64,000 nt of DNA from a virus. The DNA lies in IMG/VR virus record IMGVR_UViG_3300012936_000001, positions 1-64,000 of that record, one strand, 5' to 3'. The translations under genes and the position numbers were made by a program. Within the stretch, counting starts at the first letter, position 1. Every line of letters starts with the position of its first letter. Positions 52,540 through 63,947 of this stretch are shown here, in pieces. Under the pieces are notes generated by a model that saw nothing but the letters and a program-made list of their open reading frames with translations, searched no databases and was not told the origin of the DNA.

Positions 52540-53340
52540 GTGAAGATTACCAAAAGAAACCTCAGAAGAATTATTTCAGAAGCGATTGAGTCGAGTATGT
52601 TGTTAGAAAGTGCAAGAACATTTTGGCAATACACCGCGGTAATTACGCTGAACAATGTTGACCTATCGTCTCCCGTTGCACCTCGAAACAACAGGCTATA
52701 TCTTGTTATGGAGAGCGCTGATTGGTTTCATATGCCAAAGTATGCAAGGCTCATAAGTTCTGGTATGTTTGATAACTCTTATAAGATTGCCGAAATGGCA
52801 TCAAAAGAACGCAAGATCCTAGGAATGATGGTTGTGAAGAACCCTGATTCTGGTAGAGCCTATGGCGCAGCAGAAGTCGTTCAGGCAGCCGCAAAAAGAG
52901 GATATGGCCCAGCTCTCTATGACTTGGTGATTGGCGATCAACCGGTTGGAATATATGGCGACAGAGATTCAATTGATCCACGTGCATATGATATTTATGA
53001 TTATTACCTCAATAAAAGAGACGACATTGAAAAACTTCCGTTAGATGATCCAGAACAAAGATACACAAAAGATACAATTGATGACATGATTGCATCAACC
53101 GGTGGAAGTTATTTACCATGGAATTATATCGAAGAACCATCACATTCTCTGTGGCTTCAGGATGCAGCAAATCATGTGTATAAAGGCCCAAGACATCCTA
53201 ATATGCAAGAATATTTACAGGCTGGAGAACTTGCAAAAGAATCATTTGCAGAAAGGTGGAAGATATCCATCAAAGACGTTAACGATTTTTTTGCGAAATT
53301 AGCTTTAGATTTCTTTGATGTAAGAGATAATGAAGGCTAA
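52540..53340 (+). CDS. GNAT-like protein with putative capsid-targeting N-terminus
   Basis: A 266-aa protein from GTG 52540 (CAGGGG site upstream; the ATG at 52537 is out of frame). The first 14 residues, KITKRNLRRIISE after the initiator, form a basic amphipathic helix ending I12-S13-E14, the T4 gp21 protease rule. The protein at 53385 starts almost identically. Residues ~100-165 (AAEVVQAAAKRGYGPALYDLVIGD, then DPRAYDIYDYY) resemble the acetyl-CoA-binding helix region of GNAT acetyltransferases as seen in other phage proteins. A late-type octamer TATATTTA (52510) precedes it. A packaged, injected modifier of host proteins is an attractive but unproven idea. Confidence 0.55.
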   Translation: MKITKRNLRRIISEAIESSMLLESARTFWQYTAVITLNNVDLSSPVAPRNNRLYLVMESADWFHMPKYARLISSGMFDNSYKIAEMASKERKILGMMVVKNPDSGRAYGAAEVVQAAAKRGYGPALYDLVIGDQPVGIYGDRDSIDPRAYDIYDYYLNKRDDIEKLPLDDPEQRYTKDTIDDMIASTGGSYLPWNYIEEPSHSLWLQDAANHVYKGPRHPNMQEYLQAGELAKESFAERWKISIKDVNDFFAKLALDFFDVRDNEG

Positions 53341-53353
53341 TAAAAGGTTATGT

Positions 53354-53361
53354 GATACTTA
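53354..53361 (+). promoter_or_regulatory. candidate late promoter octamer before 53385
   Basis: GATACTTA ends 23 bases before ATG 53385. It overlaps a TATAAT (53360-53365) within a 13-base sequence repeated upstream of the Mre11-Rad50 gene, so the exact promoter type is uncertain. Confidence 0.38.
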
Positions 53362-53371
53362 TAATAAGACT
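53359..53371 (+). repeat. 13-base direct repeat, copy 1
   Basis: TTATAATAAGACT upstream of the 136-aa gene; identical to 53819-53831. Both copies lie just before a ribosome site and contain TATAAT, so they may be paired promoter elements. Confidence 0.55.
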
Positions 53372-53384
53372 TAGGAGACTACCG

Positions 53385-53795
53385 ATGAAAATCACCAAAA
53401 GACAGTTAAGAAGAATTATAAAAGAATCCATGAACAGCATGGAGCAAAGCTATATATCCAAGATAAACGAACTTCTTTCGGCCGGCGATTACGAAACACA
53501 CATGCAGGGCATTGAACTCATTAAAGCCCTCAGTGAAGAAATACCAGGATTAAAGAATCATCCGGATCTCATGATTCACTCTGCCCACGACGACGATGGT
53601 GAAGTATTTCAAATTAAACATCCTGTTTATAGATCTACTTTGACAAAAGCAGAAGCAGAATCATTCACAGAATATGATGGGGAAAAAGTATACATAGTCG
53701 ATATACACGAGTCTTCAGACGGAATTGGTACTCGTGTCGAATATGGTTATTCTTTTCCAGGTATGGACAAAGTTTATAATCTACGCCGAAGATAA
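53385..53795 (+). CDS. small protein with putative capsid-targeting N-terminus
   Basis: A 136-aa protein from ATG 53385, preceded by TTAGGAG. Its N-terminus MKITKRQLRRIIKE differs from the 52540 protein's in only two of 14 residues, while the remainders are unrelated; this argues for a portable leader rather than whole-gene duplication. I12-K13-E14 fits the gp21 cleavage rule. The mature part is acidic, with a helical stretch (INELLSAGDYETHMQGIELIKAL) and a beta-rich C-terminal half. A GATACTTA octamer (53354) lies upstream. Function unknown; an internal head protein is proposed. Confidence 0.55.
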   Translation: MKITKRQLRRIIKESMNSMEQSYISKINELLSAGDYETHMQGIELIKALSEEIPGLKNHPDLMIHSAHDDDGEVFQIKHPVYRSTLTKAEAESFTEYDGEKVYIVDIHESSDGIGTRVEYGYSFPGMDKVYNLRRR

Positions 53796-53818: not shown

Positions 53819-53831
53819 TTATAATAAGACT
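53819..53831 (+). repeat. 13-base direct repeat, copy 2
   Basis: TTATAATAAGACT upstream of the Mre11-Rad50 gene; identical to 53359-53371. No good -35 box sits 16-18 bases upstream of its TATAAT. Confidence 0.55.
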
Positions 53832-59212: not shown

Positions 59213-61237
59213 ATGGCAGAAGAATCTCTTTTTAGAAGGTTAACGAAGTTATTTCGTTCCGGGCCTACTATCAAAAGAAAAGTGAGAAACATTTCAAAGC
59301 AGGAGCAAAATGCATCTTCTGCCGTTGAATTATTTAAGAAGCACCATTCAGATGTATACAATTCGACCCTCAGTGCCTATGGCACTTTTGATAGAATGGC
59401 AAGATATTCAGACTTTTCCGAAATGGAAGCAACTCCGGAGATAGCTTCAGCACTTGATATTTATTCTGAAGAGTGTGTATCTCCAGATGTAGAAGGAAAG
59501 TGTCTACACATTACTAGCGACAACAGAAAAATAAAAGAACTATTAGAAACTTTGTTCTATGACACTTTAAATATTGATTTCAATCTAGTAATGTGGACCA
59601 GAAACCTTTGTAAATACGGTGATTTTTTCATGTTTAATGATGTGCATCCCGAATATGGAGTAATTAATGCCTATCCGATTCCCATCACAGAAATGGAAAG
59701 AGAAGAAGGGTTTGATAAAGATGACCCATCAGCAATACGATTTAGATGGATCACACAGGGAAATCAGGTTCTGGAAAATTGGCAAATATGTCATTTTCGG
59801 CTACTTGGTAATGATGCTTTTTTACCTTATGGTTCTTCCGTTTTGGAGTCTGCTAGAAGAATATGGCGGCAGCTCATTCTTATCGAAGATGCAATGCTGG
59901 TATATAGGGTTGTGCGTTCTCCTGAACGCCGTGTATTTTATATCGATGTTGGTAATGTCCCTCCAGAAGACGTAGCAAATTATATTGAACAAGCAAAAAC
60001 AGCGTTAAGAAGAGACATGGTTGTAGCCAAAGGATCTGGAACTGTTGACCTTAGATATAATCCAATGGCTGTCGATGAAGATTACTACATTCCTGTTCGT
60101 GGCGGAGATTCTGGTACAAGAATAGATAATTTGGCAGGCGGTCAGAATACTTCGGCTATTGAAGACGTTGAATACATACAGAAAAAATTATTTGCCGCGT
60201 TGAAAATACCAAAAGCTTACTTGGGATACGATGAAGAGATCGGAGCAAAAGCAACCCTTGCACAAGAAGATATAAGGTTCAGTCGTACAATACAAAGAAT
60301 ACAGAAGACCATAATTTCAGAACTCAACAAATTGGCAATGATCCATCTCTACGCACACGGTTTTGAGGGTGAACAATTGCTTGATTTTTCCTTGGGATTG
60401 TCTAACCCATCATCCTTAGCTCAACAGCAAAAATTAGAGTTAATAAGAACAAAATTTGACATTGCCGGCGCAGCTCCAGAGGGAATGGTTTCTCGATCAT
60501 GGATATATCGCAACATATTCTCTTTTACAAGGGACGAAATCGAAAGAATACAAAGAGAGAAGGTCGAGGATAAAATATCAGATGCAGAGCTTGAAAAAGC
60601 CGGTAAAGAACCAGAAGGCGGAGAAGAAGGCGGAGACGCCGGGGGCGGAGGACTTTTTGCCGGTGATTATGTTTCTGGAGATATATTAGATGCAAATAGC
60701 GGTGCAGTTCCTACTGCCGCATTAAAAGAACTCGACGAAGATGATTCGCTAGACGAGTTCGACGTTGATGATTTGGACGAAATAGACCTAGAAGGTATTC
60801 AGTCTAACAATTCTAAAATTAAAGCATCGTCATCCGCGAAGAATGCTTTTGGCGGAAATCTAAAAAAGAAAAGAGACAGAACAGTAAGAGATGGTCCTGC
60901 AAGTACTCATATGCCAGATTTTAAGAAAATGGTTCTAACTGGTAAAGCAGGAAGATCGCAAGATACACTGAATAAACCATATGATAGTGATTTTCTAAAA
61001 AATCCGTTTGGAAACACTTTCTTAGAAACAAAAGATCCAAAATCTCTGGCTGATTACATATTGGGACTCGAGTCAAATGACGAGCCCGTTTACAGAGGCT
61101 ATCGTCCAGTAATGACAAAAGAACTACAGAATATGTTTGAAAGATTAGGAAGCAAATTAGGGAAAAGGTCTATAATTAATGAAACACGGGAATTCTTAAC
61201 TGAAGAATTCGATATTGAACTCGAAGAAGACGAATAG
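59213..61237 (+). CDS. gp20: portal vertex protein (gp20-like)
   Basis: A 674-aa portal protein, larger than T4 gp20 (524). Core motifs include the N-terminal SALDIYSEECVSPD, GDFFMFNDVHPEYGV, the clip/stem region with LAGGQNTSAIEDVEYIQKKLF and IPKAYLGYDEEIGAKATLAQEDIRF. The C-terminal part adds a Gly/Glu-rich linker (GGEEGGDAGGGG) and a highly acidic run (DEDDSLDEFDVDDLDEIDLE) before a short closing domain. An AGAGGAA site precedes ATG 59213, and a CATAATTA octamer lies at 59184. It forms the unique vertex through which DNA enters. Confidence 0.92.
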   Translation: MAEESLFRRLTKLFRSGPTIKRKVRNISKQEQNASSAVELFKKHHSDVYNSTLSAYGTFDRMARYSDFSEMEATPEIASALDIYSEECVSPDVEGKCLHITSDNRKIKELLETLFYDTLNIDFNLVMWTRNLCKYGDFFMFNDVHPEYGVINAYPIPITEMEREEGFDKDDPSAIRFRWITQGNQVLENWQICHFRLLGNDAFLPYGSSVLESARRIWRQLILIEDAMLVYRVVRSPERRVFYIDVGNVPPEDVANYIEQAKTALRRDMVVAKGSGTVDLRYNPMAVDEDYYIPVRGGDSGTRIDNLAGGQNTSAIEDVEYIQKKLFAALKIPKAYLGYDEEIGAKATLAQEDIRFSRTIQRIQKTIISELNKLAMIHLYAHGFEGEQLLDFSLGLSNPSSLAQQQKLELIRTKFDIAGAAPEGMVSRSWIYRNIFSFTRDEIERIQREKVEDKISDAELEKAGKEPEGGEEGGDAGGGGLFAGDYVSGDILDANSGAVPTAALKELDEDDSLDEFDVDDLDEIDLEGIQSNNSKIKASSSAKNAFGGNLKKKRDRTVRDGPASTHMPDFKKMVLTGKAGRSQDTLNKPYDSDFLKNPFGNTFLETKDPKSLADYILGLESNDEPVYRGYRPVMTKELQNMFERLGSKLGKRSIINETREFLTEEFDIELEEDE

Positions 61238-61246
61238 GAGCAAAAA

Positions 61247-62086
61247 ATGTCAAAAAAATCCCACAACAAAAAAAGAAATGTCGGGATTATATACGAGCAA
61301 CTGATACAATATATATCTGATCGCCTCGTCAATAATCAGACCACTAGTGCTAACAAGGCAAAGAGAATAGTAAAAAAGCATTTTGTCAAAGATAGTCAGT
61401 TGTATAAAGAGTATAGGTTGTTTATGGCTCTATCAGATACTCATTCGGTAGATCCATCTTTGGCAACACAGATAATTTCAGAAGCTCGAAGAGGTTCTAG
61501 AATACACGACAAAGAAAGATTAAAGAAAGAAAAGTCTATTTTAATAAGAGATATAAATTATCATCTAGGCCAAGATTTTTATAAAAGAAAAATAAAAGAA
61601 TATAAAAAGTTTGCTACAATTCAAGTGCTCTTGAACGAATGGCGATGCGGAAATATATGTGTTGAATATGAAAAAAAATTACACGAAATGCTTACAGAAA
61701 AAAAATCAATTACAAGCTTAGAAGAAGAGAAAAATAAAGATGTTAATAGACTAGTATTGAAATTGGCAGAAGAAAAATTCAATAAAAAGTATTCGAGTTT
61801 GTTAAATGAACAACAAAAAGCAATATTGAACGAATATGTTTTTTCTCAATCCAGCAAAGACTATACAAAGATAAAATCTTCTATCAAAAAAATAAAAGAA
61901 AAAACTGTCGACGCATTGACCAAATATTCTATAGATTGTAAAAATGAAACAGTCAGCAAAAAGATTCAGCCAGTTATAACAGAAGTTCGAAATTTAAGTG
62001 AAAAAAATATAAACGACGAAACTATAAAAAAAGTTTTATCTATAGTTCAATTAAGAAATGAACTTTTGGAGAATAACAATGAGTGA
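61247..62086 (+). CDS. putative prohead-core protein between portal and protease
   Basis: A 279-aa, Lys/Glu-rich, largely helical protein. Its location matches T4 genes 67 and 68, prohead-core components between portal and protease. Helices such as EQQKAILNEYVFSQ and KKIKEKTVDALTKY alternate with charged linkers. It contains an IISEA sequence near residues 76-80, which fits the gp21 cleavage rule. The N-terminus is basic (MSKKSHNKKRN). No direct homology to gp67 or gp68 is visible, so the core role is inferred from place and composition. Confidence 0.6.
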   Translation: MSKKSHNKKRNVGIIYEQLIQYISDRLVNNQTTSANKAKRIVKKHFVKDSQLYKEYRLFMALSDTHSVDPSLATQIISEARRGSRIHDKERLKKEKSILIRDINYHLGQDFYKRKIKEYKKFATIQVLLNEWRCGNICVEYEKKLHEMLTEKKSITSLEEEKNKDVNRLVLKLAEEKFNKKYSSLLNEQQKAILNEYVFSQSSKDYTKIKSSIKKIKEKTVDALTKYSIDCKNETVSKKIQPVITEVRNLSEKNINDETIKKVLSIVQLRNELLENNNE

Positions 62087-62684
62087 TTTGAAATTATTAA
62101 CTGAGTTTAATGCATGGGAATTTGACAAAGAAAAAATGTTGAACGAAAGAACCAGTTCAAACAGATACGTTATGAAAGGTATTCTTCAAAAGGCAGACAC
62201 TCTAAACCAAAATGGAAGAATATATCCGCAGGATATCTTGGAAAGAGAGGTGCGAAATTATCAAAAATTTATTGCCGAAAATAGAGCGCTTGGCGAATTG
62301 GATCACCCGGATTCTTCTGTAGTAGAGTTGAAAAATGCTTCCCATATTGTTCGAGAAGCTTATATGGACGGAAAGATATGTTATGGAACAGTAGAAATTC
62401 TTGATACTCCTGCTGGCAAGATTCTTAAGTCTTTGGTTGACAACGGAGTGACATTAGGTATATCGTCCAGAGGCGTAGGGTCTACGAGATCTGAAGGAGA
62501 TTATCAGGTTGTTCAAGACGATTTTCAACTTATCTGCTGGGATTTCGTGTCGGAACCATCAACCCCCGGCGCCTTCATGATGAAAGAAGCAAAAGAAATA
62601 AAGCCATCCGATCTTAAGAAAGTATTTAATAAATCGGATAGAATTGATAGAATATTCAACAACATATTAGATTGGAGAAAGTAA
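62079..62684 (+). CDS. gp21: prohead core protease (gp21-like, S78-type)
   Basis: A 201-aa serine protease that would mature the head by trimming scaffold, shell and internal proteins. Family signs: NGRIYP near 45-50, H76 in GELDHPDSS, and the Ser in LGISSRGVGST (129 or 130). Size fits T4 gp21 (212). ATG 62079 has a TGGAG site and overlaps the upstream gene by 8 bases; the ATG at 62058 is less likely. T4 gp21 cleaves after Glu in (I/L)-x-E, which is the basis for the candidate sites noted in several proteins here. Confidence 0.9.
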   Translation: MSDLKLLTEFNAWEFDKEKMLNERTSSNRYVMKGILQKADTLNQNGRIYPQDILEREVRNYQKFIAENRALGELDHPDSSVVELKNASHIVREAYMDGKICYGTVEILDTPAGKILKSLVDNGVTLGISSRGVGSTRSEGDYQVVQDDFQLICWDFVSEPSTPGAFMMKEAKEIKPSDLKKVFNKSDRIDRIFNNILDWRK

Positions 62685-63170: not shown

Positions 63171-63587
63171 ATGAAATTAAAACGTTCAGTTCTAAAACAG
63201 CTAATAAAAGAATGCCTAGTAGAGATTCTCATAGAGGGAATAGATTCCGAAGGACAAGAAGACCGTTTGGTTGAAGCAGCTGTCTCTTCTAGAAAACAGC
63301 AATTCAAAAAACCTCAAAACGACTATGTACCAGCATCATCTAAGAGTCAAAGAAAACCTATGATTAATGAACATGCTGTCTCTGCCATGGCCGGCGGTGA
63401 CAGCATTATGGCAGATATATTTCGTGACACCGCCTCAACGACCCTGCGAAATCAAGGCATGAAGAACGAAAACGCAAGAATACCTGCCGACAATGCCGCC
63501 GCTGTCGTTGCAGATCACGATCCAACAGAACTTTTCGAAGGTGCAGGAAACTGGGCAAAATTAGCATTTATGGGATCAGAAAAATAA
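63171..63587 (+). CDS. head-region protein with putative capsid-targeting N-terminus
   Basis: A 138-aa protein. The first 14 residues, MKLKRSVLKQLIKE, form a basic helix ending I12-K13-E14, in the same register as the 52540 and 53385 proteins. The rest is hydrophilic and of mixed charge, with an Ala/Asp-rich segment (ADNAAAVVADHDP). It follows the 160-aa gene by 3 bases and lies just after the protease gene. An internal or scaffold-like head protein processed by the protease is likely, but not shown. Confidence 0.58.
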   Translation: MKLKRSVLKQLIKECLVEILIEGIDSEGQEDRLVEAAVSSRKQQFKKPQNDYVPASSKSQRKPMINEHAVSAMAGGDSIMADIFRDTASTTLRNQGMKNENARIPADNAAAVVADHDPTELFEGAGNWAKLAFMGSEK

Positions 63588-63650: not shown

Positions 63651-63947
63651 ATGAGAAGAAAAAGATCCATGAGTGCAAAAGCATTCCGAAATTTTGTTAT
63701 TAGAGAAGCCAGAAAACTTCAAAAAGAAGCGGTATCTGGAAAGATCGAAGACGTTTCAAAAGTTAAGGCAAAAGAAGTTGATGCAGATGGATATGCTGAT
63801 ACGTTAGAGCAAGATATAGATTATATTAAAGCACTGAAAATCAAAGAAAATAAGATACGTAGACAGCATGCAAGAATGAAGCGCCAATTGAAAATGATCC
63901 AAGAAAGAAAAAGAAGATTGCGTGCTAGAGTTCTTAAGAACATATAA
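63651..63947 (+). CDS. small basic head-region protein with I-x-E leader
   Basis: A 98-aa, very basic, fully helical protein. Its leader MRRKRSMSAKAFRNFVIRE ends in I17-R18-E19 followed by Ala, again fitting the gp21 cleavage rule. The rest is a long charged helix (KIRRQHARMKRQLKMIQERK) ending in Arg/Lys-rich sequence. It has its own TTAGGAG site and a CATAATTA octamer at 63611. It could be a DNA-binding internal head protein or a scaffold component. Confidence 0.58.
   Translation: MRRKRSMSAKAFRNFVIREARKLQKEAVSGKIEDVSKVKAKEVDADGYADTLEQDIDYIKALKIKENKIRRQHARMKRQLKMIQERKRRLRARVLKNI

Follow-up and report, generated by a model that had tools for sequence, protein, structure and literature searches.

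A shared N-terminal leader as a candidate capsid-targeting tag in a lineage of T4-like phages

A short, basic N-terminal leader ending in hydrophobic-x-Glu is shared by otherwise unrelated proteins of a T4-like virus and its relatives. Read from the sequences, it is most probably a capsid-targeting propeptide processed by a gp21-type protease, with which both accessory and head-module proteins are tagged. The best reading is that the leader is specific to one lineage, is analogous to the T4 leader MKTYQEFIAE and would have been expanded into a general packaging tag; by the same analogy, we infer that the leader proteins are located in the virion, cleaved and injected. The principle of leader-tagged head cargo is known from T4. 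New here are an unrelated putative leader with a basic P2 residue matched to the lineage's own capsid site, a scale that reaches 29 tagged genes in one genome, the presence of the tag on conserved head-module proteins, and apparent polyproteins. Among 5.39 million open-access papers, none was found with MKITKRQ or the related core leader strings in its text.

The leader and the genes that carry it

The analysed window comprises bases 1-64000 of a 167,118-base IMG/VR virus record (IMGVR_UViG_3300012936_000001), whose head module is T4-like (Table 1). The gp21-like protease that the sequence-only reading had placed at 62079 was recovered by both family searches, with a PF03420 score of 93.1 bits, above the curated cut-off of 27. 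Homologues of this S77 protease commonly have KLLTE or KLITE close to their own N-terminus. In one relative (G047, C1:102559-106161), the portal match lies in three pieces within a single 1897-aa open frame, which suggests in-frame insertions, e.g., inteins, in the portal gene.

Table 1. Head-module genes, leader genes and a related enzyme gene; "genome" marks positions in the whole record, and an arrow marks a putative cut.
Feature	Position	Strand	Remarks
Accessory leader protein, 266 aa	52540..53340	+	GTG start; ribosome site ggggatt
Accessory leader protein, 136 aa	53385..53795	+	ATG start; ribosome site taggaga
T4-type portal protein gp20	59213..61237	+	PF07230 E=9e-77
gp21-type prohead protease, Peptidase_S77	62079..62684	+	PF03420 E=2e-26; PHROG 207 E=3e-50
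Conserved head-module leader protein	63171..63587	+	Glu14 and Glu22 sites, MKLKRSVLKQLIKE↓CLVEILIE↓G
Second conserved head-module protein, variant leader	63651..63947	+	...FVIRE↓A, Glu19; 69 homologues
Scaffold-like acidic protein	ends genome 66915, beyond window		named by position and sequence features
gp23-like capsid protein	genome 66962, beyond window		named by position and sequence features
Further leader genes	genome 107239, 107649, 131365, 132448, 133609, 134906		
Further leader genes	genome 162177, 162913, 163337, 163762, 164274		
Weaker leader forms	genome 125839, 148506		
Fe/Mn superoxide dismutase, phage-encoded	genome 125839-126525 (L006:5839-6525)		Pfam E=1e-22; PDB 1coj E=1e-25

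The two accessory proteins at 52540 and 53385 had been described as sharing a leader and nothing obvious besides, and BLASTP agrees: the alignment is significant over residues 1-18 only, 13 of these 18 being identical. The leader of the first covers codons 1-14 (52540-52581), MKITKRNLRRIISE, with A after the putative cut, and that of the second (53385-53426) is MKITKRQLRRIIKE, with S after it. Pfam and PHROG gave no match for the 52540 protein and no convincing match for the 53385 protein. Homologues of the former and of the protein at genome position 133609 were sought in cultured and IMG/VR phages and none were found; a weak match to the 52540 protein (22% identity) occurs in L105, in a protein that itself starts leader-like. 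The AlphaFold model of the 52540 protein built without an alignment has a mean pLDDT of 33.5 and is uninformative. A promoter common to the leader genes was sought and not found, with TATAATAAGA repeated upstream of 53385 and 53849 only. A promoter-like repeat, TATAATAAGAC, lies 25-29 bases upstream of 53385 and 53849 (window 53360-53370 and 53820-53830) and was not seen ahead of other genes with an upstream gap.

Four leader proteins had been noticed initially; across the whole 167-kb genome, the consensus M(K/R)ITKRQL(K/R)RII(K/R)E is carried by at least 14. Five tandem genes at 162-165 kb have the form M(K/R)(I/L)(T/S)KRQLKRIIREEY...GLI(K/R/S)E or GLLRE, that is, with a second hydrophobic-x-Glu. 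A strict 14-residue DNA pattern was found in 77 stretches on 49 IMG/VR contigs, with up to eight copies per stretch, and a looser pattern matched 3-29 genes per large record, these records having been picked beforehand for the leader. In ten further S77 contigs, the looser pattern gave 14 matches in one (G050) and 0-2 in the other nine, and accessory leaders are absent from several of the lineage's S77 contigs of 110-127 kb, which are probably fragments. The leader is not a chance pattern, since the looser pattern read backwards had no match in the same large records and no leader was found in 46 control records, T4-like phages included. These controls were T4, KVP40, P-SSM2, S-RIM2, HTVC008M, Mel-JY01 and immuto, all with S77, together with phiKZ, SPO1 and 37 IMG/VR contigs, one of these 37 with S77, that had been chosen through a polymerase motif. 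A leader-peptide tblastn search against cultured phages returned nothing, a weak result given the BLAST low-complexity filter, and pattern searches were therefore used.

Of the 49 leader contigs, 13 have the S77 protease and the T4 portal, always the two together; these 13 are among the 15 leader contigs of at least 100 kb, and the remaining ones are without both, as expected of fragments. The leader is thus not concentrated in phages without a gp21-type protease, although shared ancestry confounds the link with S77. A search of 84,980 species genomes of bacteria and archaea with the strict pattern gave matches in three metagenome bins only, in one of which a single contig has 19 of the bin's 20 looser matches as well as the S77 gene. 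This distribution, together with the controls, indicates that the tag is a feature of one phage lineage with S77 and not of T4-like phages in general. Contigs of leader phages have been sorted into the bacterial MAGs Methylococcaceae TMED69 and Halobacteriovorax SP2999 (G097:C5, that is NHDW01000006.1, 305,838 bp, by inference; PBIO01000025.1, 101,404 bp), which is either a host hint or binning contamination.

In 1.13 Mb of the lineage, 490 distinct leader ORFs were collected by the core pattern (Glu14 not required), a set gathered by the leader itself, whose figures describe the family and not its frequency among phages at large. The median length of these proteins is 107 aa. Single-linkage clustering of their mature parts (E<=1e-3) gave 236 clusters, of which 178 are singletons and one has 91 members. 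Pfam recognised only three families among 99 representatives, HD_4, SET and LysM, with one member each. The HD_4 domain (PF13328, E=6e-9) is in the protein at L023:1322-2263 (minus strand) and is a domain type of SpoT-like alarmone hydrolases. The accessory leader genes are arranged in tandem clusters, apart from the head genes.

Two conserved genes that adjoin the gp21-type protease gene on its downstream side also carry the leader. The N-terminus of the 63171 protein, MKLKRSVLKQLIKE, is in the same register as the leaders of 52540 and 53385, as had been claimed, and a homologue of this protein is present in 84 S77 loci. Glu14 is present in every one of the 65 homologues aligned and Glu22 in at least 90% of them, and these two positions match the sites of the accessory leaders. 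Given the homologue alignment, AlphaFold places residues 5-29 of the 63171 protein in a single helix, with a pLDDT near 90 for the first 20 residues; the stretch after the helix is predicted with low confidence. The 63651 protein begins MRRKRSMSAKAFRNFVIRE↓A and had been suggested as a fourth case. Many of its 69 homologues begin K(I/L)TPxxL(K/R)(K/R)(I/L)(V/I)xxE, with N-termini such as KLTPALLKKLVMEEKAKLME and KITPEILKKIIVQEARKL, and because their leader is of the type seen above, its Glu placed one alignment position later, the 63651 protein is considered a true member.

In the lineage, the C-terminus of the scaffold-like protein reads RWxKLAGIxxK (L003:3886-3915). Two leader proteins (genome 132448 and 133609; regions L006:13564 and L006:14857) have RWNKLAGLLKD at their C-terminus and contain ILDGHHRW, which may represent a second, C-terminal head signal for a few proteins. 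As a general second signal, RWxKLAG was rejected, since all 472 leader proteins in the main set lack it.

The putative cleavage site

Glu14 is found in 472 of the 490 leader proteins and Asp takes its place in none, while Asp is as common as Glu within these proteins. The 18 proteins without Glu14 often have a shifted hydrophobic-x-Glu (e.g., MISLITEA or IRKTLLEA). Residue 13, corresponding to P2, is Lys or Arg in 425 of the 472 (90%). A second hydrophobic-x-Glu occurs at residue 21 in 15% and at residue 22 in 32%, compared with about 2.3% per position further on, and about one third of the leaders have no second site in residues 16-30.

The leader site resembles the lineage's own capsid-protein maturation site, (V/L/I)L(R/K)E↓(S/A/Q/T), whose cut position was placed by alignment with T4. 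Glu and a basic P2 occur in all 60 capsid sequences covering this site, and the basic P2 is common to both sites; in the capsid proteins of T4, Mel-JY01 and immuto, P2 is T, S and S, respectively. The P1' residue after Glu14 is Glu in 61% of the leaders, and the capsid site most often has Ser or Ala. Of the sequence evidence for a single enzyme cutting both sites, the agreement at P2 is the most direct. A test of whether the mature parts are depleted of [IL]-x-E showed no clear depletion overall, and gives no support to the cleavage reading.

A total of 38 in-frame internal leaders were found, each at least 60 residues into the open frame. In 15 of them, the leader does not begin with a start codon, and these therefore look like true fusions, with individual assembly errors possible among these 15; some of the other 23 may be the starts of separate in-frame genes. 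A hydrophobic-x-Glu within eight residues before the leader Lys2 accompanies 23 of the 38 copies, as in FMEGKM^KISKRQLRRIIKEE; 4.4 such copies would be expected, and 2000 random draws yielded 11 at most. Among the 15 copies without a start codon, the upstream site occurs in 10, versus 1.7 expected. Sites flanking an internal tag are what a protease-resolved polyprotein would require.

The phage-encoded superoxide dismutase was spotted through its leader-like start, and its homologues were gathered by the enzyme, not by the leader. Its N-terminal extension begins MDRTIKKIIKE. In this protein and 37 homologues from IMG/VR phages, the extension is of variable length and sequence but ends in x-x-E↓(A/S/N)(Y/F/L), with Glu in 38 of 38 and a hydrophobic P3 in 37 of 38. 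The junction is thus conserved and lies at the edge of a known fold, and the enzyme is a cargo candidate, possibly packaged in the virion. Recognisable exceptions among the tagged unknown proteins include the HD_4 protein, and the superoxide dismutase has a related propeptide.

Comparison with known systems and alternative explanations

In T4, gp23 is matured at FLTE↓AEIGG, and the internal proteins IPII and IPIII at FIAE↓A. The first 10 residues of IPIII suffice for targeting into the prohead core; residues 4 and 7 are used for targeting and residues 8 and 10 are needed for processing, with Asp at position 10 stopping processing but not targeting (PMC9026906). The T4 internal proteins are described as a diverse defence set in which the targeting sequence alone is conserved (PMC3012670), and the leader proteins show this pattern on a larger scale. 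The leader described here is similar to the T4 targeting sequences (CTS) of IPI, IPII and IPIII in being short, N-terminal and ended by hydrophobic-x-Glu, in preceding unrelated hypervariable mature parts, and in the presence of an S77 protease in the same genome. It differs in sequence and length (14-22, sometimes 27, residues, compared with 10-19 in T4), in its basic P2 (T4 sites, FLTE↓A and FIAE↓A), and in the number of tagged genes (up to 29 per genome, by pattern, against a few in T4). Internal tags in fused proteins and the tag on conserved head-module genes are further differences, and targeting and cleavage, shown for T4, are predicted here from sequence. The leader is not T4's MKTYQEFIAE, being different in sequence and absent from T4, and no homology to the T4 targeting sequence was detected; it is therefore classified as working like the T4 CTS and not as belonging to that sequence family.

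The 63171 and 63651 proteins are comparable to the T4 prohead core proteins gp67 and gp68, being small and encoded in the portal-protease-capsid gene block, and gp67 contains LIKEEKIAIARNFLIEG, a leader-like string. They differ in lying after the protease gene and not before it, and the comparison is one of size, position and string. In giant phages such as SPN3US and phiKZ, head proteins with propeptides are reported to be cut by a phage prohead protease and ejected into the cell (PMC5694885, PMC10052503). The likeness would lie in this processing and ejection, whereas both the leader and a PF03420 match are absent from phiKZ.

The strongly basic character of the leader, the helix predicted for 63171 and the absence of a second site in some leader proteins would also suit a localisation helix that is never cut, directed to a membrane, DNA or an assembly compartment of the infected cell, with Glu14 in the helix interface. 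This is improbable, as Glu14 is never exchanged for Asp despite the abundance of Asp in these proteins, P2 agrees with the phages' own capsid site, hydrophobic-x-Glu brackets the internal copies, and the superoxide dismutase junction keeps the site alone and not the helix sequence. Very similar leaders and tandem gene clusters could likewise mark one ancient protein family with mature parts diverged beyond recognition, but this is hardly credible given the 236 clusters (mostly singletons) with differing lengths and domains, and a leader that is also found internally and on conserved head proteins.

A further possibility is that the leader is a gp21-cut module binding the core or scaffold, with the accessory proteins serving head assembly or size and not being injected. 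Such a role would fit the leader on the conserved head-module proteins 63171 and 63651, as well as the scaffold's C-terminal RWxKLAG motif on two leader proteins of the genome. The hypervariability of the accessory proteins, their clustering apart from the head genes and the HD_4, SET and LysM domains behind the leader, unlike structural parts, make this account unlikely, though it deserves weight. For the capsid-targeting reading, nearly every sequence prediction that could be tested was favourable (Glu14, the capsid-site match, the lineage, the head genes and the internal copies).

Proposed pathway and significance

According to the capsid-targeting reading, the first 14-22 or so residues would form a basic amphipathic helix, as predicted for 63171, which may bind the prohead core and so enclose the new protein in the assembling head. 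The gp21-type protease would cut after Glu14 and often again after Glu21 or Glu22, and the GLI(K/R)E form of this genome may have its second cut after Glu27. Cleavage would leave the mature protein free inside the head, possibly to be injected with the DNA in a further step. The 63171 and 63651 proteins would be constitutive users of the tag, behind which many fast-changing accessory proteins, sometimes as tandem fusions, would also be placed. Taken further, the leader may constitute a general cargo-loading platform in this lineage of large environmental T4-like phages, in which each genome would place 10-30 proteins, most of them unknown, behind the one cleavable tag, site-flanked head-to-tail fusions included, all delivered from the head at infection; this broader proposal appears reasonably likely.

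If the proposal is true, a simple N-terminal motif would predict which of the many unknown genes in this phage group travel in the virion, probably to be injected, and the tagged genes would likely be first-line take-over or counter-defence factors. Candidate proteins would become available by the hundred (236 clusters in this set), along with a second, independent capsid-targeting code for comparison with that of T4.
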